Origin: a bacterium
Lineage (GTDB): Bacteria; Oederibacteriota; CAKKQC01
NCBI GenBank assembly: GCA_919901855.1
Contig: CAKKQC010000022.1
Span: 94,251 to 158,250, forward strand
Length of the DNA stretch: 64,000 nt
Direction of reading: 5' to 3'
Positions 2,684 through 55,752 of this stretch are shown in pieces (the first letter of the stretch is position 1; every line of letters starts with the position of its first letter). The notes below the pieces were generated by a model that was not told the origin of the DNA, did not search any database, and saw only the letters and a program-made list of their open reading frames with translations. Both the position numbers and the translations under genes were made by a program.

Positions 2684-3834
2684 TGGCGCGGCGTCGCGAT
2701 CCGGAGGCTGGTCAGGTTCTGCCCTGGGCAGCCGGCGGGCTCGTGGTCGCCGCCCTGGTCGCGCTCCTGGTCGTCCGGGTGGCGCACGACCGGTGGGAAC
2801 GCGTGCGGTGGCAGACGGCGGCCGACGCGACGGCGCTGTCGACCGCGACGTCGTACGCGCGGGGACTCAACCTCGCTGCCGCGTCGAACCAGGTCCTGCT
2901 AGCCGCCGCGATCACGGACCTGGCGCTCAAGGCCCTGGGGGTGGGGGCGGTCCAGAAGGCGGTGGGGAAGACGGCTGGGGCGATGGGCCTGAAGGGGCCC
3001 ACTAGCTTCACCGACGTGGTCACCCAGCTTCAGGATCTCTGGGCGGGCACGTGGCTCCGGGTGCCGCCCGGGGGCGTGCCGGCCGCGCCCGCCGGATTCG
3101 CGCCCCTGATGATGGAAGCCACGGCCGTCGCCGTCGGGCGCGCGAACGGACTGTTGGTCGTGCCGCTGTGGAACGGGCGCCGCGGGCCGGGGGCGGCCGT
3201 GCCCGACCTCAATCTGCGCCGGGCGACGGCGGCCGATGTGATGGCGGAGCTGGGCCGGACGACGACGACGGTCGAATCCGGCACCAGGAAGGAGACCCGG
3301 TACTCGTACCAACCGGAGTCAGGCGGGAGACGCGTGGAGGTGCCTCCCCAGGAAGTCGAGCGGATCAGGTACCGGGACGAGCGGGGGCGCTGGGTGGAGA
3401 GATCGAGGATCAGGGGGCGCGAGGGCAACCTGGCGGGCAAGTTCCTGCACGTCGAGAAGGTGGCGACGAAGGCGCTCAAGGCCCTCGACTTCCCGCTGCC
3501 CCTGGTCGAGCGGGAGCCGGCCCACCGGGTCGTGATCGTCGGCCGGCCCTGCGCCACGAACCAGCCGGGCGCGCGAAGGGTAGTAGTGGCGGCGGCGGAG
3601 GTCGGCGGCGGCGCGGTCTTCAACGCCGCCTTCGGGGACCCCTCCTACGACGTTCGGCTGGCGGAACCCCCGGGCGGACTCGCGGCCGACGCGGACGTCC
3701 TGCGCCTCCTCGCTTCGCCGGGCCTCCTCCGCGCGTGGATCGTCCGGTCCGCCGCGACGATGGTCTCGGACTACTTCCGGGCCGGAGTTTGCGACAAGTT
3801 GACTGCCGGGTTGCCGGGCCTGGGATCGCGGTAG
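2683..3834 (+). CDS. TadG-like (Tad domain) pilus-associated protein
   Basis: 383 residues from GTG 2683, which shares a base with the TAG stop of the TadE gene. The start RRRDPEAGQVLPWAAGGLVV resembles the Tad/TadG N-terminal helix (GQxLxW). A TAADATALSTATSYA stretch follows, also typical of TadG proteins (AADAAALAGA). Residues after about 70 form a large exported domain of unknown function. The operon lacks TadA ATPase, TadB/TadC platform and RcpA secretin genes in this window, so those must be elsewhere if the pilus is functional. Confidence 0.55.
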   Translation: MARRRDPEAGQVLPWAAGGLVVAALVALLVVRVAHDRWERVRWQTAADATALSTATSYARGLNLAAASNQVLLAAAITDLALKALGVGAVQKAVGKTAGAMGLKGPTSFTDVVTQLQDLWAGTWLRVPPGGVPAAPAGFAPLMMEATAVAVGRANGLLVVPLWNGRRGPGAAVPDLNLRRATAADVMAELGRTTTTVESGTRKETRYSYQPESGGRRVEVPPQEVERIRYRDERGRWVERSRIRGREGNLAGKFLHVEKVATKALKALDFPLPLVEREPAHRVVIVGRPCATNQPGARRVVVAAAEVGGGAVFNAAFGDPSYDVRLAEPPGGLAADADVLRLLASPGLLRAWIVRSAATMVSDYFRAGVCDKLTAGLPGLGSR

Positions 3835-47330: not shown

Positions 47331-48781
47331 TGGCCAAACGCGCGCTCCTGATCAACCCCCCGACGGGGCTGTACATCCGGGAAGACCGGTGCCAGGCCCC
47401 GCTCAAGGGCATGGCCGCGACCACGGCCCGGCCCCCGCTCGACCTCGCGTACATGGCCGCGACGATGGAGTCCGCGGGCGTCGAGTGCCGGATCAAGGAC
47501 TACCCCGTGCAGGGCGGCGGCTGGGCCGAGTTCGGACAGGAACTCCGGGAGTTCAAGCCCGACCTCCTCTTCATCTCCGTGACCAGCTTCACGATTCAGG
47601 ACGACCTCGTCGCGTGCCGGGCGGCCAAGGACGCGCTGGGCGACGCGGTCACGACCGTGGCCAAGGGCGCGCACATCTCGGTAATGGCCCGCGAGACGCT
47701 GGAGAAGAACCCGGCGCTCGACATCGCGATCATGGGGGAGTACGAGCTGGCGGCGAAGGAGATCGCGCTCGCGACCGACCTCCGCAAGGTCTACGGCCTC
47801 TCGTTCCGCGATCGCGCTACGGGGAGCATCGTCACCACCGAGGCCCGGCGGTTCCTCGAGACCCTGGACATCCTTCCGTTCCCGGCCCGCCACCTCCTCG
47901 ACAACAAGATGTACCTGCGCCCCGACACCGGCCAGATGCAGACGACGGTCCAGACCTGCCGGGGCTGCGGCGCGAACTGCATCTTTTGCCTCTCCGGCAC
48001 CGTCTACGGCAAAAAGGTCCGGGTCCGGAGCCCCCGGAACGTCGTGGACGAGCTGGAGCAGTGCGTGCGCGTCCACAAGATCAAGGACTTCTTCTTCCGG
48101 GCCGACACCTTCACGTGGAACCGCCCATGGGTCATGGAGGTCTGCCAGGGCATCCTGGACCGCAAGCTCGACATCCGCTGGGTCTGCAACAGCCGGGTGG
48201 ACACGATCGACGCCGAGCGCCTCGCGATCATGAAGAAGGCCGGCTGCCACGGCGTCGCGTTCGGGATCGAGAGCGGGGTGCAGGAGATCCTGAACAAGAT
48301 CAAGAAGGGCACAACCCTCGAGAAGGCCCGCGAAGCCGTCGCCCTCTCGAAGGCCAGCGGAATGAAGACCCTCCTGTACTTCGTCATGGGGCTCCCGTGG
48401 GAGACCGAGGCCGACGTGCGCAAGTCCATCGACTTCGCCCTCGAGCTCGGCGGTGACTTCGTCGAGTTCCACCTCGCCATCCCGTTCCCGGGCACCGAAC
48501 TCCACGACATCGCCCAGCGCGACAAGCTGTACGCCGAGGAGTCCCTCGCGGGCTACGACTACAGCCGCACGCCGCTCAAGACCTACTACCTCTCGGGCGA
48601 ACAGCTCCTGAAGCTGCGCCGCGAGGCCTTCCGCCGCATCTACTTCCACCCGGCCTCGATCCTGCGGATCATGAAGACGATCATCCTGGGCCTTCGTTCC
48701 CCCTCCCAGCTCTGGTACACCTTGAAGTTTGGCGCCTCCAAGATGGCCAGTCTCGTCCTGTCGCGGGAGGAGAATCGGTGA
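47330..48781 (+). CDS. B12-binding radical SAM enzyme
   Basis: 483 residues. N-terminal cobalamin-binding domain (ALLINPPTG, LAYMAATMESAGVE, LLFISVTSFT) to about residue 180, then a radical SAM barrel with the CxxxCxxC cluster motif in GCGANCIFC near residue 208. GIESGVQEILNKIKKGTT follows near 320. The family includes methyltransferases and cyclases acting on lipids, sugars and hopanoids. It closes the glycan cluster, so modification of a glycolipid or undecaprenyl-linked sugar is a reasonable guess. Substrate unknown. Confidence 0.85.
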   Translation: MAKRALLINPPTGLYIREDRCQAPLKGMAATTARPPLDLAYMAATMESAGVECRIKDYPVQGGGWAEFGQELREFKPDLLFISVTSFTIQDDLVACRAAKDALGDAVTTVAKGAHISVMARETLEKNPALDIAIMGEYELAAKEIALATDLRKVYGLSFRDRATGSIVTTEARRFLETLDILPFPARHLLDNKMYLRPDTGQMQTTVQTCRGCGANCIFCLSGTVYGKKVRVRSPRNVVDELEQCVRVHKIKDFFFRADTFTWNRPWVMEVCQGILDRKLDIRWVCNSRVDTIDAERLAIMKKAGCHGVAFGIESGVQEILNKIKKGTTLEKAREAVALSKASGMKTLLYFVMGLPWETEADVRKSIDFALELGGDFVEFHLAIPFPGTELHDIAQRDKLYAEESLAGYDYSRTPLKTYYLSGEQLLKLRREAFRRIYFHPASILRIMKTIILGLRSPSQLWYTLKFGASKMASLVLSREENR

Positions 48782-48785
48782 ATGC

Positions 48786-49259
48786 GTGCGGCCCAGTATT
48801 GTGAAGGTGGGACCGCGGTCTCGGTACGAGTTTGAGGATCTTCAGCGGATCGTCTCGAGCCACACCAATGCCGTGCTTGCGTGGATCGGGTTCTTTCTCA
48901 CAGTAAACATAGCGGGGCTTGCAGGTTGGTCCGTTCTCTTGAAGACACCCTTCTCTCCGGTTCAGGCGTGTTTCTGGGAGTTCTATCACGGAGTGCTTCT
49001 TGTCATTGTGAACTTCGCGCTCTTGGTCATGCACTATCGTGAACGGACCACTCGTGATCAGGCGATGCTTCGGATGAGGAGGTATGTCAGGAGCGCGGAG
49101 GATCGTACTGGATGGAGAGGGAAGACGTGGCTGGTATGGAATCTTCTCAATGGGATCGCAATTCTATTCTGGGGTTTCGTAGTCTACTCGATGCTCACCG
49201 GGGACAATACCCCGTGCAAGGGCAATTTCCGCATGCTTCTCAGTTTTGGCCTGATGTAG
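48786..49259 (+). CDS. Three-helix membrane protein of unknown function
   Basis: 157 residues from GTG 48786. A short charged N-terminus (RYEFEDLQRIVSSHTN) is followed by helices at about residues 28-50 (AVLAWIGFFLTVNIAGLAGW), 65-80 and 118-136 (LVWNLLNGIAILFWGFVVYS), with a basic cytoplasmic loop between the last two. Codon use is less GC-rich than the upstream cluster. It faces the ATPase/PIN pair tail to tail across a 197-base gap. I do not recognise the family; it could be an effector or immunity partner, or unrelated. Confidence 0.5.
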   Translation: MRPSIVKVGPRSRYEFEDLQRIVSSHTNAVLAWIGFFLTVNIAGLAGWSVLLKTPFSPVQACFWEFYHGVLLVIVNFALLVMHYRERTTRDQAMLRMRRYVRSAEDRTGWRGKTWLVWNLLNGIAILFWGFVVYSMLTGDNTPCKGNFRMLLSFGLM

Positions 49260-49456: not shown

Positions 49457-50011
49457 TTAGCAGCTACCCAGATTGCACCAGTTCTGTTCCGGGGCGCCAG
49501 CACGAATCCATCTGATCACGCGGTCATCTCCGTCCTGGGGTCGCACCCACATTGTGCCCCGAACCTTCTTCAGCTGGTCAGCGTAGCGTGCGTACAGCTT
49601 GCGTGCGCGCTGGTCGACCGAGACAATCCGCCTGTCTGTTACGATTGCGGCGGCGACGATACACACATCCTTGAGCATCGCTCCTCGCCCCTTGCATTCC
49701 GGAACGAGAGCGACGATCGCATTTCGTAGGTGCATGCGACGGCGTTCCAGCCCTAGACTTTCAAGGGACTCTTGCCCAACAACACGTTCATTGTTGATCA
49801 TCAGCTGATACCATGTCGTGGCGTAACCGCCCGCATGCCTGTCCCATTCAGCCTTGATCTCCGCAGAGAAGACAACCGTGTGGCGTCTCTCAAACACGAC
49901 GTCAAGAACACTCCTGCAGGCTCTGCCATCGACTGACAGCGTATCCAGTGCGCCCGCCATTGCTGCGACGCACGCGTCGATGACGAGCCGCTTGGAAGAT
50001 GGCCGAGACAT
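49457..50011 (-). CDS. PIN-like nuclease partner of the ATPase
   Basis: 184 residues, minus strand. PIN-domain pattern: Asp12 in LVIDACVAAM, Glu51 and Glu55 in SAEIKAEWDRH, Asp115 in MLKDVCIVAAAI and Asp126/Asp133 in VTDRRIVSVDQRARKL. Together these could form the acidic metal site of an RNase/DNase. It starts three bases after the stop of the upstream ATPase gene, so both come from one mRNA. It is longer than VapC toxins and has no antitoxin-like neighbour, so it is not a standard VapBC toxin. Probably the effector nuclease of a two-gene system. Confidence 0.6.
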   Translation of the reverse strand: MSRPSSKRLVIDACVAAMAGALDTLSVDGRACRSVLDVVFERRHTVVFSAEIKAEWDRHAGGYATTWYQLMINNERVVGQESLESLGLERRRMHLRNAIVALVPECKGRGAMLKDVCIVAAAIVTDRRIVSVDQRARKLYARYADQLKKVRGTMWVRPQDGDDRVIRWIRAGAPEQNWCNLGSC

Positions 50012-50014
50012 TCC

Positions 50015-51391
50015 TTACCGTCGGCGGCGCGATTGCGTCGCGTCAAGGAACCGCCGCTGCAACGACATCAGCCCTGGGCCGAAATCATCCGGCCAGCCGG
50101 GCGTTCGTCCGTGCTTCGTAATCCGAGCTGACGTGACTTTCGTCATGCCTTGCTTGTCCTGTTCGAACCAATGCATGGCCACCTTATCGGGAGAAAGCTT
50201 CCGCCTCGCGACTAGCGTCTGGATCGCCAACACGAGGAGATGGCTGTGCGTTTCCACAACGACATCGACGCCTCTTTCAACTGCTCGAGCGAGCACTCCA
50301 GCCATCTCCTCTTGGGCTTTAGGATGTAGGTGGATCTCCGGTTGCTCCACGTATACGAGCTGACCTTCCTCTGCGGCGTGGAGCGCGACTATGACGGGGA
50401 CCGCCTGCGATGTGCCGAACCCGACGTGTGCGATGTTGACAAGATCTCGGGCGCCGCCTTGGCTTGGCTGCAACGTTCTGCCCACATGGATTGCAGTCTG
50501 CACATCGTTGCCCCTGATTGGAACGGGCTCAATCTTCCATGTAAGCCCAAGAGATCGAAGGTCGCTACGAAGATCCCGAAGCTCGCTCGATGATTTGGTT
50601 GCCACCCAATCGTTAAGGATGCTGGCAACGTACTTCTCGAATGTTCCCGGGAACGTGTATCCGACTGCCGAAACTGGATAGGTGAGCTCCGGGTTCCCCC
50701 GGAGCCCGGGGACGTGGATGATGCCGCGGACTAGGGATGCGGCCATCTCTGCAGGGAAGGGGTAGATCCAGCGGTATTGTCTCGTCTTGCGGCCTCGCAT
50801 CCAATAAAGGGACCATTCGAAAAAGCAGCGATCCCGAAGGATTGCCCAGTGGTGATCGCCGCGTCTAAGCACGTGCTGAGGGGCGGCTCTTCGAATCTCG
50901 GGAGGGACGGACATTCTTACATCATCTCGACCCATGCCTAGCCTTAGGGTCACAGACCTTGGTCCCTCCTTCGCCGTCATAGAGCGCAAATCTACCCCTC
51001 GAGGGCGGCGTCTCCTGAATGTCGTCGAGATGCTCCGATTAGCGTCGATGCCTATTTCCACCGTCATCTTGGAAGCCGTGCCCTTTGCAGGAGAGTGCGA
51101 GAACAGCTGGTCCGCGAGTATGAAATGCACGTTGGGCCCATCGAGTCGCAACGCTCCTGGATCGACCTCGGACTCGAGCGTCTGCTTCATCAAGAGAAGT
51201 GGTTGCATCATGCTTGACTTGCCCGAGCTGTTTCGGCCGGCGAGTATCGTCAGAGGGCGAATATCGATCCGCTGACGATTCATGATCGATTTGTACCCCG
51301 TTACAGCTAACGACGATATTCTGTCTCCGCGATGGAACGGGGCTTCAGCGAATCGCCGCCCTTTCCTGGGTCGTTTCGCGATCTTAACCAT
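50015..51391 (-). CDS. AAA/OLD-like ATPase with DUF3696-type C-terminus
   Basis: 458 residues, minus strand. Walker A GRNSSGKSS at residues 52-60, the Walker B and signature region EQPEIHLHP at 349-357, and the switch His in ETHSHLL near 382. The C-terminal WPDDFGPG near 433 matches DUF3696. These are SMC/OLD-type ATPases frequent in phage-defence loci. Residues 100-300 form an insert with no recognised motif. The gene begins with a TATCAT box seven bases upstream of its ATG (leaderless). It is co-directional and nearly contiguous with the PIN-like gene. Confidence 0.75.
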   Translation of the reverse strand: MVKIAKRPRKGRRFAEAPFHRGDRISSLAVTGYKSIMNRQRIDIRPLTILAGRNSSGKSSMMQPLLLMKQTLESEVDPGALRLDGPNVHFILADQLFSHSPAKGTASKMTVEIGIDANRSISTTFRRRRPRGVDLRSMTAKEGPRSVTLRLGMGRDDVRMSVPPEIRRAAPQHVLRRGDHHWAILRDRCFFEWSLYWMRGRKTRQYRWIYPFPAEMAASLVRGIIHVPGLRGNPELTYPVSAVGYTFPGTFEKYVASILNDWVATKSSSELRDLRSDLRSLGLTWKIEPVPIRGNDVQTAIHVGRTLQPSQGGARDLVNIAHVGFGTSQAVPVIVALHAAEEGQLVYVEQPEIHLHPKAQEEMAGVLARAVERGVDVVVETHSHLLVLAIQTLVARRKLSPDKVAMHWFEQDKQGMTKVTSARITKHGRTPGWPDDFGPGLMSLQRRFLDATQSRRRR

Positions 51392-51398
51392 ATTGCTG

Positions 51399-51404
51399 AT
51401 GATA
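51399..51404 (-). promoter_or_regulatory. -10 box directly before the ATPase gene (leaderless)
   Basis: On the minus strand TATCAT is followed by seven bases and then ATG (51391-51389). A weak TTTCCA -35 sits about 17 bases upstream. No ribosome site is visible. Confidence 0.4.
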
Positions 51405-51615: not shown

Positions 51616-52859
51616 CCGCCGTTGCGATCGCGATCATGATGCTGGGGGCGGGGGGTGTGGCGGCAGGACCCGCGGGTGATCCCTTGGAAGCCTTCGCGGA
51701 GATGGCGCGGCAGGCGAGGGCGGAACGGGCGGCGCTCCGGTTCCCGGACCACAAGAAGCTCATCGCCTTCTCCCAGGATGCCCTGCTCCCGGAGGACTTG
51801 GCGAAGCGCTCGGACGAGATCGCGGGATGGGGCCTCGACGGCGTGGTGCTCGAGATGAAAGCGCTGAAGCGCGGATTCTCCCCCGATCCCGTGGATGAGG
51901 CGGCCCTCGCGGTGGATTACGGGGCGCTCGCGGGGCTGAAGGAGACCAAGCTGACGGACAACTTCGTCCTCTGCTGGGCCACCTCCACCCTGGACTGGTT
52001 CGACGAGAAGGAGTGGGCGGCCGCCCTCCGGAACACGAGACTGATCGCCCGCGGCGCGCTCCTCGGCCAGTGCGCCGGGATCCTCTTCGACCCCGAATGC
52101 TACGGTCCGAACGTGTGGCGATGGCACGGGGCGAAGCGCTTCGGCAAGAAGACGTTTGCCGAGTACCGGGCGAGAGTCGAGCGGTGCGGGGAGGAGTGGA
52201 TGCGGGCGGTCGAGGAGGAGCTCCCCGCCCCGCGTATCCTCGCCCTCTTCCTCACCGGATGCGAGGGGCTGGCGTACCAGTCGCGGAAGGGCGCGGACGA
52301 GGTCCGGAAACAGCAGGAGACGGCCGAGAAGGGCATGGTCTTCAACTACGCGCTCCTGTCGGCCTTCATGGAGGGGATGATCCGGGCGGCCTCCCCGCGG
52401 GCCATGATCATCGACGGGAACGAGCCGGCCTACTACTTCCCGTACGAGGGGTCGCATCCGACGTACGCGTCGTACTTCAGGGACCGCGCGGCTGGCGCCT
52501 TCTTCCCACCCGAGGTCGCACGCAGGTACACGGGAATCGTCCGGCTGGGCTCCACGTTCTACCCGAACTTCTGCCTCGGTCTGTACGAGCCCAAGTGGAG
52601 CGGCGCGGACCGGCTGGCACCCGCGGACCAACGGCGCTGGCTCGAGCACAACGTCTACTGGGCGTTCAGGACGTCGCAGGAGTACGTGTGGGAGTACCTG
52701 GACCCGCCCCTGACGCGATGGGGCGGCAAACTGCCGGACGGGTACGCGGAGGCGGTGAAACGCGGCCGGGCGAAGGCGGAGACGGGAGCCCCGCTCGGGT
52801 TCGAGCTACCGGGCCACCTGGCCCCGCTGTGGACGGAATGGGACAAGGGTGGTCCGTAG
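51597..52859 (+). CDS. Secreted TIM-barrel-like protein of unknown function
   Basis: 420 residues from GTG 51597, with signal peptide VAIAIMMLGAGGVAAG. IAGWGLDGVVLEMKAL, GILFDPECYGPN and MIIDGNEPAYYFPYEG suggest a glycoside-hydrolase-like barrel, with an acidic DPE and DGNE that could be catalytic, but I cannot assign a family. The frame is open back to 51534, but the signal peptide supports the later start. Its end overlaps the Asl1-like fragment. Confidence 0.55.
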   Translation: MADRSLTAVAIAIMMLGAGGVAAGPAGDPLEAFAEMARQARAERAALRFPDHKKLIAFSQDALLPEDLAKRSDEIAGWGLDGVVLEMKALKRGFSPDPVDEAALAVDYGALAGLKETKLTDNFVLCWATSTLDWFDEKEWAAALRNTRLIARGALLGQCAGILFDPECYGPNVWRWHGAKRFGKKTFAEYRARVERCGEEWMRAVEEELPAPRILALFLTGCEGLAYQSRKGADEVRKQQETAEKGMVFNYALLSAFMEGMIRAASPRAMIIDGNEPAYYFPYEGSHPTYASYFRDRAAGAFFPPEVARRYTGIVRLGSTFYPNFCLGLYEPKWSGADRLAPADQRRWLEHNVYWAFRTSQEYVWEYLDPPLTRWGGKLPDGYAEAVKRGRAKAETGAPLGFELPGHLAPLWTEWDKGGP

Positions 52860-53128
52860 CGTGGCCCTCCTCGCGATGGCGCTGGCGATGGCGGGCATGA
52901 CCCCCGTGGTGACGCCCAAGAAGGGCGTCGGGCACTGGGGAGACCGCCTGCCGAACGCCCCCGACGTACTCGGGTGCAGTTGGTACTACAACTGGGGTCC
53001 GCGGCCGGAGACGGAGCCGGGCGGGGTCAAGGCCGAGTTCGTGCCCATGATTTGGAGCGGCGCATTCGCCACGGCGGAGAACCTCGCGCACGTGACGTCG
53101 GCCGGGTACACGGCCCTCCTCGGGTTCA
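52847..53128 (+). repeat. Direct repeat copy 1 (282 bp)
   Basis: Aligns without gaps to 53858-54139. By eye about nine of ten bases match, beginning at GGGTGGTCCGTAGCG and ending at CGGGTTCA. Each copy encodes the N-terminus of an Asl1-like glycosidase. The pair flanks the phd/PIN toxin-antitoxin module. Confidence 0.75.
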
Positions 53129-53163
53129 CCGAAGATGGGGCCGAAGATGGGGTCAGAGCTTGA
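52849..53163 (+). pseudogene. Truncated Asl1-like glycosidase (copy 1)
   Basis: 104 codons. Signal peptide VALLAMALAMAGMTPVVT, then the start of a Glyco_hydro_cc (Asl1-like) domain: KKGVGHWGDRL, LGCSWYYNWGP and EFVPMIWSGAF. The catalytic FNEPD motif present in the second copy is lost: after LLGFTE the frame runs into a GAAGATGGGG tandem repeat and stops. It is an N-terminal remnant. Confidence 0.65.
53131..53154 (+). repeat. 12-bp tandem repeat at a break point
   Basis: GAAGATGGGGCC is followed by GAAGATGGGGTC. It lies exactly where homology between the two 282-bp copies ends, and is followed by the AT-richer GAGCTTGACATTTGACATT. It may be the scar of the event that truncated copy 1. Confidence 0.4.
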
Positions 53164-53217: not shown

Positions 53218-53454
53218 ATGGCTGTCAACGTGCACGAAGCAAAGACCCACCTTTCGAAACTGCTGAACCGGGTGGCGGCGGGCGAGGAGATCGTGATCGC
53301 CCGGTACGGGCGGCCGGCGGCCCGGATGGTGCCGATCCGGAAGGTGACGGGCCCGCGGCAGCTCGGGGGGCTCAAGGGGAAGATTCATATCGCCGGGGAC
53401 TTCGACGCTCCGCTTCCGGCGAAGCTCCTGCGCCGCTTTCACGGGGCGGTGTGA
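53218..53454 (+). CDS. Phd/YefM-family antitoxin
   Basis: 78 residues: VNVHEAKTHLSKLLNRVAAGEEIVIARYGRPAARMVPI is the Phd/YefM DNA-binding core, followed by a short toxin-binding tail (PAKLLRRFHGAV). It should repress its own promoter through the adjacent palindrome and neutralise the PIN toxin encoded next, which overlaps by four bases. Confidence 0.88.
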   Translation: MAVNVHEAKTHLSKLLNRVAAGEEIVIARYGRPAARMVPIRKVTGPRQLGGLKGKIHIAGDFDAPLPAKLLRRFHGAV

Positions 53455-53840
53455 AACTCCTCCTCGACACCCATATTCTGCTGTGGGCCATGGCGGGGGA
53501 TGAGCGAATGCGCCCGGCGGCTCGCCGGGCGATCACGGACTCGGCTAACACGGTCTACGTGAGCGCCGCAAGTGCATGGGAGATCGCGATCAAGGCAGGC
53601 CTGGGGCGAGTTCGTATCCCTCCGAACACGTCCAAGTGGTTGCCTGCCGAAATCGAGCGGAGCCAGTTCCTCGCGCTTCCCGTCACGATCGATCATGCGC
53701 TGGCCGTCGAGCGACTCCCGCGGCACCACAATGACCCCTTTGACCGCCTCCTCGTGGCCCAGGCAAAGGCCGACGGCCTGACGTTGGTGACCCACGATCG
53801 GAACCTGTGTCGATACGACATCGCCGTGCTCGAAGCTTGA
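53451..53840 (+). CDS. VapC-like PIN-domain toxin
   Basis: 129 residues. The PIN acidic residues appear in order: Asp in LLLDTHILLW (residue 6), Glu in SAASAWEIAIK (about 43), and Asp in HHNDPFDRLLVAQA and VTHDRNL. This is the HHxDPFDR subfamily that pairs with Phd-type antitoxins. A ribonuclease acting on tRNA or rRNA is the known family activity. It starts at GTG 53451, overlapping the antitoxin stop. Confidence 0.88.
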   Translation: MKLLLDTHILLWAMAGDERMRPAARRAITDSANTVYVSAASAWEIAIKAGLGRVRIPPNTSKWLPAEIERSQFLALPVTIDHALAVERLPRHHNDPFDRLLVAQAKADGLTLVTHDRNLCRYDIAVLEA

Positions 53841-53857: not shown

Positions 53858-54139
53858 GGGTGGTCCGTAGCGTCGTCCTTCTCGCGGCGGCGCTGGCGAT
53901 GGCGGGCATGACTCCCGTCGTGACACCCAAGAAGGGCGTCGGACACTGGGGGCACCGCCTGGCGAACGCCCCCGACGTGCTCGGGTGCAGTTGGTACTAC
54001 AACTGGGGGCCGCGGCCGGATTCGAAGGCGGACGCGGTCAAGGCCGAATTCGTGCCCATGATCTGGAGCGGCGCGTTTGCCACGGCGGAGAACCTCGCCC
54101 ACGTGACTTCGGCCGGGTACCCGGCCCTCCTCGGGTTCA
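53858..54139 (+). repeat. Direct repeat copy 2 (282 bp)
   Basis: Second copy of the 52847-53128 repeat, same length and no gaps. Here homologous coding sequence continues past the repeat end into the FNEPDGHGQADMT region, so this copy preserves more of the ancestral gene. Confidence 0.75.
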
Positions 54140-54282
54140 ACGAGCCGGACGGTCACGGGCAGGCGGACATGACCGTCGCGGAGGCCATCGCGATCTGGCC
54201 GAAGCTGGAGGCCACCGGACTCCGGTTGGGGAGCCCGGGGACGCTGACGCCGGTCGGCTTGGCCTGGATCTCGGCCCCATGA
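53860..54282 (+). pseudogene. Truncated Asl1-like glycosidase (copy 2)
   Basis: 140 codons. Same signal peptide and domain start as copy 1, continuing through LLGFNEPDGHGQADMTVAEA, which carries the family's catalytic Glu of the NEPD motif, to ATGLRLGSPGTLTPVGLAWI. A complete domain needs about 100 further residues, including the second catalytic Glu. The stop overlaps the start of the M23 peptidase gene (ATGA), so the 3' half has been replaced. Confidence 0.6.
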
Positions 54283-55121
54283 CCCGGGCGGCCGTCGGCG
54301 CCGTCCTCGCCCTGCTCGTCCCGTGCGCTGGCGCCCTTGCGGCGCGTGTGGCGCCCGCGTCCCTGCCATGCGACCTGCCGGGCATCCGGATCTTCGACCT
54401 GCCGCGGCCGGGAGGGGGCGTGATCCTGGTGGCGCGGAAGCTGACGCATCATCCGGTGACGATACGGATGCCCGTGTCGTCGACGGGCATGATCGCGGAC
54501 CGGCCCATCCCCGTCCTCGTCACGCTGCCCTCGGCGAGGGAGTACGTGCTCGCGGAGTTTCGGTTCGCGGTCCCCGGCGCGCCATGGCACATGGACTGGA
54601 GCCACGTGGACATCTCGGGAAACCTGGGGGCGAGGCATGACCCCAATGCCGTCTACGAGCTTCCATGGGCCAGGGGGGAGACGCATGCCGTCACCCAGGG
54701 CCCACATGGCTCGGCCTCCTGGTACGAGGGGGGATGCGCCATGGATTTCGACCTCAAGGAGGGCACGGAGGTGCGCGCGGCCCGGGCGGGGGTCGTGGCC
54801 GAGTTCCAGGACGAGTGCACGAAGGCGGGGCCGATGGGCACGGCCTCGAACTACGTCGTCGTCCTCCACGCGGACGGCACGCTCGGCGACTACGAGCACT
54901 TGCGGCGGGGCGGCGTGGTCGTCCGTGTCGGCGACCGGATCAAGGCCGGGGACCTCCTCGGCTATTCGGGGAACACCGGCGCGTCATCCGGCCCGCACTT
55001 GCACTTCGGCGTGCTCTCCGTGAACCCGGACTTGTCGTGGGCGCCCCAGCGCCTGCGGTTCCGGGTGGCGGGCCGGCGCGACCTGGTAGAACTGGCGAAC
55101 GGCTCCAGCTACACGCGTTAG
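54279..55121 (+). CDS. Secreted M23-family peptidase
   Basis: 280 residues. Signal peptide AVGAVLALLVPCAGALAA, an N-terminal beta domain to about residue 135, then a LytM-type domain. Zn ligands: His in QGPHG, Asp in GCAMDFD and the GPHLHFGVLS pair near 245; EHL near 207 is also typical. These enzymes cut peptidoglycan cross-links in the periplasm. It sits in an ATGA overlap with the glycosidase remnant and ends four bases into the convergent vapC gene. Confidence 0.82.
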   Translation: MTRAAVGAVLALLVPCAGALAARVAPASLPCDLPGIRIFDLPRPGGGVILVARKLTHHPVTIRMPVSSTGMIADRPIPVLVTLPSAREYVLAEFRFAVPGAPWHMDWSHVDISGNLGARHDPNAVYELPWARGETHAVTQGPHGSASWYEGGCAMDFDLKEGTEVRAARAGVVAEFQDECTKAGPMGTASNYVVVLHADGTLGDYEHLRRGGVVVRVGDRIKAGDLLGYSGNTGASSGPHLHFGVLSVNPDLSWAPQRLRFRVAGRRDLVELANGSSYTR

Positions 55122-55525
55122 CGGCGGGACCAGTTCTCCAGCTTCAAACCCGGAATGCGGCGGAACTCGCGCTCGTTGTTGGTGACGAGAACCGCAGGAA
55201 GGGAGAGCGCGTGGGCCGCGATCAGCGTGTCCAGGGGGCCGACTGGCGTGCCGCGGCCCTCGAGGGCGGCTCGAATCCGACCGTAGGTCGCTGATGCTGC
55301 CGTGTCGAAGGGCATGACCTGGAGGGGAGCACAGAACTGCACAAGGGACGCGTGGTTCGCCTCGGATTCGCCACTCCGGGAGACCCCGAACCAGAGCTCT
55401 GCCAGGCTGATCGATGAGATGCCAAGCGATCCCGGGGGGCACCTCTTGAGCCGATCGAGAACAGGCTCCGAACGACCCCGGATCAGCGCGATGCAGATAT
55501 CGGTGTCGAGGAGATGCCGAATCAC
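55118..55525 (-). CDS. vapC: VapC-family PIN toxin
   Basis: 135 residues, minus strand. RHLLDTDICIALIRG holds the first Asp, SISLAELWFGVSRSG the Glu, and GPLDTLIAAHALSL and VTNNEREF the remaining PIN motifs. This is the classic MvpT/FitB-like VapC type that cleaves initiator tRNA in characterised members. It overlaps the vapB stop by four bases. Confidence 0.9.
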   Translation of the reverse strand: MIRHLLDTDICIALIRGRSEPVLDRLKRCPPGSLGISSISLAELWFGVSRSGESEANHASLVQFCAPLQVMPFDTAASATYGRIRAALEGRGTPVGPLDTLIAAHALSLPAVLVTNNEREFRRIPGLKLENWSRR

Positions 55526-55752
55526 AGCGTGGCGCGACGATCCTTGCCGCGTGGCTGGTCACGCCGGACCATGAAGTCCTTGGAGAACCCCGCCAGGGAT
55601 CTTTCAAGGACCTCCCAGCCTCGATGCTTGGGGTAGAGGACCACGAGGTCGCCGATCTTGTTGACCGACACCTCCGTCTCGTTGAACCGGTACTCCTTGG
55701 GGAGACGGACCGCCTGGCTCCTGCCTGTCGTGAACACCTTTGCCGTCGTCAT
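55522..55752 (-). CDS. vapB: VapB antitoxin (AbrB/SpoVT fold)
   Basis: 76 residues, minus strand. KVFTTGRSQAVRLPKEYRF is the swapped-hairpin AbrB DNA-binding motif of VapB proteins. The C-terminal FSKDFMVRRDQPRGKDRR would wrap the toxin. GGAGGTGACC immediately precedes the ATG, so this unit has a normal ribosome site. Confidence 0.9.
   Translation of the reverse strand: MTTAKVFTTGRSQAVRLPKEYRFNETEVSVNKIGDLVVLYPKHRGWEVLERSLAGFSKDFMVRRDQPRGKDRRATL

Follow-up and report, generated by a model that had tools for sequence, protein, structure and literature searches.

A DUF3696-type ATPase and its PIN-fold partner form a mobile two-gene cassette, probably an undescribed branch of the ATPase–nuclease anti-virus systems

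A known class of anti-virus systems, represented by WonAB, PD-T4-4, PARIS, Septu and the candidate system HEC-03, combines ABC-ATPase sensors with nuclease effectors. WonAB, a validated system from a Vibrio prophage, pairs an OLD-type ABC ATPase with a nuclease; both proteins are required, and infection is aborted through an arrest of translation. It has been proposed to be one member of a wider, uncharacterised family in which ABC-ATPase sensors are combined with nucleases (PMC12137116). In WonAB and PD-T4-4 the nuclease has a PD-(D/E)xK fold. PARIS, which is carried as prophage and satellite cargo (PMC9122126), couples the ABC-ATPase sensor AriA to a separate TOPRIM nuclease, AriB, which cuts tRNA (PMC12409363); like WonAB, PARIS acts by halting translation. 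Septu joins the SMC-like ATPase PtuA to the HNH nuclease PtuB, and Menshen (NsnABC) has the DUF262 protein NsnA and the nuclease NsnC in its operon in addition to NsnB. HEC-03, a PADLOC Hma-embedded candidate (HEC-03A and HEC-03B), consists of a DUF3696-type ATPase followed by a small PIN-like protein. PIN RNases have also been validated as anti-phage effectors in the DefensePredictor systems DS-3 and DS-5 (PMC13092281), which consist of one gene or pair the PIN protein with a DUF5830/AcrIF4-like protein, and which have no ATPase partner.

We analysed a gene pair within a 64,000-nucleotide stretch of DNA from a bacterium of the phylum Oederibacteriota, referred to here as the window. A preliminary description, made from the sequence, had reported a 458-residue ATPase and a 184-residue protein on the same strand, three bases apart, and the open reading frames agree: both genes lie on the minus strand with a 3-nt gap. 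Like WonAB and PD-T4-4 the pair has two genes, and like PARIS and Septu it joins an ABC or SMC-like ATPase to a separate nuclease-like protein; in contrast to all of these, the partner has a PIN fold. The coordinates of the genes and their motifs are given in Table 1.

Table 1. Features of the ATPase–PIN gene pair, in window coordinates
Feature	Coordinates	Strand	Details
DUF3696-type ABC/OLD-like ATPase gene	50015..51391	(-)	458 aa; ORF, Pfam, AlphaFold and tree
Walker A GRNSSGKSS, ATPase residues 52-60	51212..51238	(-)	GxNSxGK[ST]S in 20/20 relatives
Walker B region QLVYVEQPEIHLHP, ATPase residues 344-357	50321..50362	(-)	Gln350 at the canonical catalytic Glu site
DUF3696 C-terminal segment with WPDDF, residues 399-437	50081..50197	(-)	PF12476, 1e-6
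PIN-fold protein gene	49457..50011	(-)	184 aa; ORF, AlphaFold and Foldseek
PIN acidic residue D12	49976..49978	(-)	Invariant in 20/20 relatives
PIN acidic residue E55	49847..49849	(-)	Invariant in 20/20 relatives
PIN acidic residue D115	49667..49669	(-)	Invariant in 20/20 relatives
PIN acidic residue D133	49613..49615	(-)	Invariant in 20/20 relatives

The lower GC content noted in the preliminary description is borne out by the two genes, at 57.9% and 58.6% compared with 68.4% for the whole window. This low-GC stretch begins at about 48.7 kb, before the PIN gene, and takes in one further open reading frame (48729-49259, plus strand; GC 54.8%), which adjoins the pair on the opposite strand, contains hydrophobic stretches and matches no family above the cut-off. 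This frame may have arrived together with the pair; the relatives showed no recurring third gene beside it. A sigma-70-like match lies ahead of the ATPase gene (51427-51399), a single match being the chance expectation of the promoter scan, and both promoter and terminator scans around the pair stayed at chance level. No convincing direct repeats, which would be a sign of insertion, flank the two genes. The ATPase is present as a single copy in its own genome.

The ATPase matches AAA_15 (1.5e-19), AAA_21 (2.7e-19) and DUF3696 (1e-6) above the Pfam cut-offs, and all of the motifs read by eye in the preliminary description (Walker A GRNSSGKSS at residues 52–60, EQPEIHLHP, THSH within ETHSH, and WPDDF) are present. 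Its AlphaFold model (pLDDT 80, pTM 0.83) retrieves SMC/Rad50 heads with Foldseek, as well as PtuA of Septu and retron complexes. The hallmark of the Class 1-3 OLD nucleases, a fused C-terminal TOPRIM domain, is absent, with Pfam showing ATPase and DUF3696 matches only above the cut-off in this 458-aa protein. At the Walker B position of the catalytic glutamate, 20 of 21 proteins of the window's ATPase clade (clade A, defined below) read EQ, and one (L011) reads EE. Loss of this glutamate is a family-wide natural feature of DUF3696 ATPases, the position being Q (in one case H) in HEC-03-type and N in Menshen-type proteins. Laboratory E-to-Q mutants of the Walker B motif provide a precedent among ABC ATPases for a slow or nucleotide-locked state, and by analogy with them the Glu-to-Gln replacement in clade A suggests a slow or nucleotide-locked switch. 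We propose that the ATPase acts as the sensor and switch of the pair.

The small protein had been called PIN-like by eye, and structure comparison bears this out. Pfam gives it no match above the cut-off, and it is likewise unmatched in PADLOC, NCBIfam and PHROGs. An AlphaFold model built from an eight-row alignment reached a pLDDT of 90.1 and a pTM of 0.87. Foldseek ranked VapC4 first with a probability of 1.00 but an E-value of 0.011, and VIA-align superimposed the model on a VapC (7vwo_A) over 130 residues at 2.9 Å with a Z-score of 10.4. VapC and FitB toxin chains occupy most of the top VIA-align ranks, and PIN domains of the Nob1, SMG6 and RNase P types follow at lower scores. The four invariant acidic residues D12, E55, D115 and D133 correspond to the usual acidic PIN positions, and W155 is likewise invariant in 20/20 relatives. 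By its modeled fold and acidic residues, the protein is a member of the PIN-domain nuclease superfamily with predicted catalysis, and we propose that it serves as an RNase effector.

Since VapC toxins are the nearest PIN folds and share the four acidic residues, and since the pair is a small bicistronic operon found on mobile elements, it could be viewed as an addiction module resembling toxin–antitoxin systems, in which a VapC-like PIN toxin is controlled by the ATPase as antitoxin or chaperone, stabilising the mobile element rather than defending the host. The Pfam family of ordinary PIN domains (PF01850) nevertheless misses the protein, which is not among the 31 ordinary PIN matches in the same genome. 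The partner is a conserved ABC ATPase of 430–500 aa instead of VapB or another small DNA-binding antitoxin, the PIN gene has no Phd-, MazE- or AbrB-type gene as its immediate neighbour, and the order, ATPase then PIN, also argues against such a module. In the analogous WonAB system, simple sequestration was ruled out experimentally (PMC12137116). We therefore regard an addiction module as unlikely, noting that addiction and defence can coexist and are not exclusive.

The window copy lies outside any obvious defence island; the neighbours that were tested encode glycosyltransferases, a peptidase M23 and two toxin–antitoxin pairs of the VapC type. One of these pairs, about 1.8 kb from the ATPase–PIN pair, encodes a Phd-type antitoxin and, after it, a VapC-like PIN toxin (53218-53840, plus strand; Pfam 8.8e-11 and 1.2e-17). 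The other comprises a MazE/VapB-like antitoxin (1.4e-5) and a VapC-like PIN toxin (8.7e-17) at 55118-55752 on the minus strand. Two near-alike partial open reading frames (52849-53163 and 53860-54282, plus strand; MVRSV..LLA.ALAMAGMTPVVTPKKGVGHWG...) are situated on either side of the Phd–VapC pair, as if one gene had been duplicated or broken around a toxin–antitoxin insert.

To place the ATPase among its relatives, we built a tree of 47 ATPases, in which the position of the root is not fixed and the long-branch rows are unsure. Three groups were recovered: clade A, which contains the window's ATPase (support 100/100), an HEC-03 group (99/96) and a Menshen group (100/99). The tree requires three partner changes in all, the minimum possible, and partner type thus follows ATPase phylogeny. 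Most of the more distant DUF3696 ATPases are paired with a protein of about 160–180 aa that is recognised by the HEC-03A model and carries PIN-like acidic residues of its own. The Menshen-like loci (L022, L030 and L034) belong to another clade, and the single partner tested there matches NsnC. Two further small proteins encoded after divergent DUF3696 ATPases have no HEC-03A match: one (L026, 1050-1490, minus strand) matches PIN_3 weakly (2.6e-4), and the other (L024, 947-1465, minus strand) is PIN-like by eye. These two proteins suggest further PIN partner lineages.

Among PADLOC models, the window's ATPase matches NsnB best (5.6e-52) and also matches HEC-03B (6.6e-33), AriA (3.5e-22) and PD-T4-4_A (1.1e-14). 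Although the top match shows homology to the Menshen ATPase, we rejected an identification as Menshen, as neither NsnA nor NsnC adjoins the pair and the ATPase clade differs. HEC-03 requires closer consideration, because its ATPase model also matches the window's protein and both systems place a PIN-like partner after the ATPase. Furthermore, when the PIN profiles were compared with hhalign, the N-terminal and central parts of the clade-A and HEC-03A families aligned at 40% probability, compared with 1.4% for a VapC control represented by a two-sequence profile. This points to only a weak similarity between the two PIN lineages, which may or may not share a common origin. In contrast, the HEC-03A model matches neither the window's PIN protein nor the seven other clade-A PIN proteins scanned, the two ATPase clades are distinct and each well supported, and the ATPase scores better with NsnB than with HEC-03B. 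The partner motifs also differ, with DPSDRKFVAVA and a C-terminal FLC in HEC-03 and EWxxH, KDxHLxEAA and W[VI]NP in clade A. We did not accept the identification as HEC-03, given that HEC-03A misses the PIN partner, and we consider it rather doubtful that the pair is a divergent HEC-03 system instead of a separate kind. The preliminary statement that the pairing matches no nameable system holds to the extent that neither PADLOC nor the tree gives an exact match; the design nevertheless has precedents in HEC-03 and in the WonAB family.

The preliminary description had made recurrent adjacency of the two genes a check on its proposal, and no exception was found among the sampled testable loci. 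The PIN gene lies directly downstream of the ATPase gene in every testable clade-A locus: in the window, in 11 further genomes representing four sampled phyla, and in 11/11 testable viral contigs. The two genes are always on the same strand, with an overlap or a gap of no more than 6 nt. In the window's phylum, a clade-A ATPase occurs in 2/45 genomes; a relative from another family (L003, which lies within L004 and is the same locus) carries the two genes overlapping by 4 nt. A profile search of a second phylum identified the ATPase in 6/291 genomes (the full-length gene at five loci and, in the sixth genome, a gene divided between two contigs), with clade-A proteins scoring 227–455 bits and distant DUF3696 ATPases at most 118 bits. 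The PIN gene follows in 6/6, and a PIN profile, derived in part from those six genomes, retrieved exactly the same six from the 291 and no lone PIN gene. Two further phyla contribute L048, L049, L050 and L051. In L051, the PIN gene (2859-3385) is divided into two overlapping frames behind an intact ATPase gene, possibly through a frameshift or an assembly error.

A search of viral contigs with a seven-row alignment gave 12 distinct contigs with the ATPase, and the PIN gene follows in 11, the twelfth (L037) stopping at the contig edge. A first scan of the viral contigs had returned nothing and a scan of genome contigs with a two-row alignment only the known locus, the patterns being too narrow in the latter case and probably in the former. 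Plasmid and phage records gave no match to the PIN queries, plasmids none to an ATPase query at 1e-30, and E. coli genomes none at the DNA level to the one prophage pair that was searched for. No pair was found in the phyla around G047, G050 and G052, a result that shows little. Distances between ATPases correlate with those between their PIN partners (r = 0.75, n = 20, 0/9999 permutations as high), a correlation to which host relatedness contributes. Among close prophage copies, dN/dS lies between 0.09 and 0.38 for the pairs with estimable dS (NG86, dS being partly saturated). In the window copy and in nearly all relatives, the pair is poorer in GC than the locus around it.

Several copies occupy recognisable prophage positions, as judged by PHROGs matches of their neighbours. 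The pair lies between a tail protein gene and the tape measure gene in L039, next to an integrase in L040 and L041, upstream of a terminase in L036, and upstream of a terminase and a portal gene in L060. Hotspots of anti-phage genes have been described by Rousset and colleagues in P2-like phages, in a Bacillus prophage and in Vibrio prophages, where they fall between the cI repressor and the integrase (PMC9122126). From our reading of the open reading frames, L040 has the gene order of the Vibrio-type hotspot, with a putative repressor. By analogy with these hotspots, the prophage positions are consistent with anti-phage cargo. Taken across its occurrences, the pair is a small, horizontally mobile two-gene cassette present in several bacterial phyla and in prophages.

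PIN domains also process rRNA and tRNA, and the lower-scoring resemblance to Nob1, SMG6 and RNase P-type domains would suit a housekeeping or repair pair that processes RNA and is unconnected with phages. The patchy presence in the window's phylum and in the second phylum, the prophage cargo positions and the low GC of the genes do not fit this explanation, which we consider highly improbable.

The reading we favour, with moderate confidence, treats the two genes as a single anti-phage cassette that moves horizontally and causes abortive infection, the ATPase acting as the infection sensor and as the licensing factor for the PIN RNase. The ABC/OLD-type ATPase, probably a nucleotide-locked dimer, would hold or stabilise the PIN protein in a complex and would respond to a phage trigger. 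Once triggered, it would allow the PIN domain to cleave a structured RNA, for example tRNA or rRNA; translation would then stop and the infection would be aborted. We infer this sensing and licensing role of the ATPase, and with it complex formation, the trigger, the RNA target, the abortive outcome and the defence activity itself. The simplest reading, which by analogy seems reasonably likely, is that clade A has a design similar to WonAB and PARIS with a PIN effector.

Because the pair recurs in several phyla and as prophage cargo, it is probably an undescribed branch of the known class of ABC-ATPase sensors with nuclease effectors. The pairing of a DUF3696 ATPase with a PIN-like protein is not new in kind, since the HEC-03 candidate already has it. 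The novelty, to the extent that it could be checked, lies in the separate clade and in its PIN lineage, which escaped every library searched. We found neither a published description nor a defence assay of clade A in a search that took in neither bioRxiv nor most subscription journals, and an earlier listing is possible. The stronger claim of a new system type, namely a deep DUF3696 clade of nucleotide-locked (Glu-to-Gln) ATPases that activate their own PIN RNases, cross phyla, sit at phage hotspots and are invisible to existing models, is tentative, and we would put it somewhat short of an even chance.

With this pair, the emerging class in which ABC-ATPase sensors are combined with swappable nuclease effectors gains a branch that has its own effector lineage and is missed by PADLOC models. 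Since the ATPases group by partner in the tree, a single scaffold seems to have acquired different effectors, so that phage sensing and nuclease licensing could be tested by comparing sister systems. The prophage copies, as short two-gene cassettes, may be readily tested in laboratory hosts.
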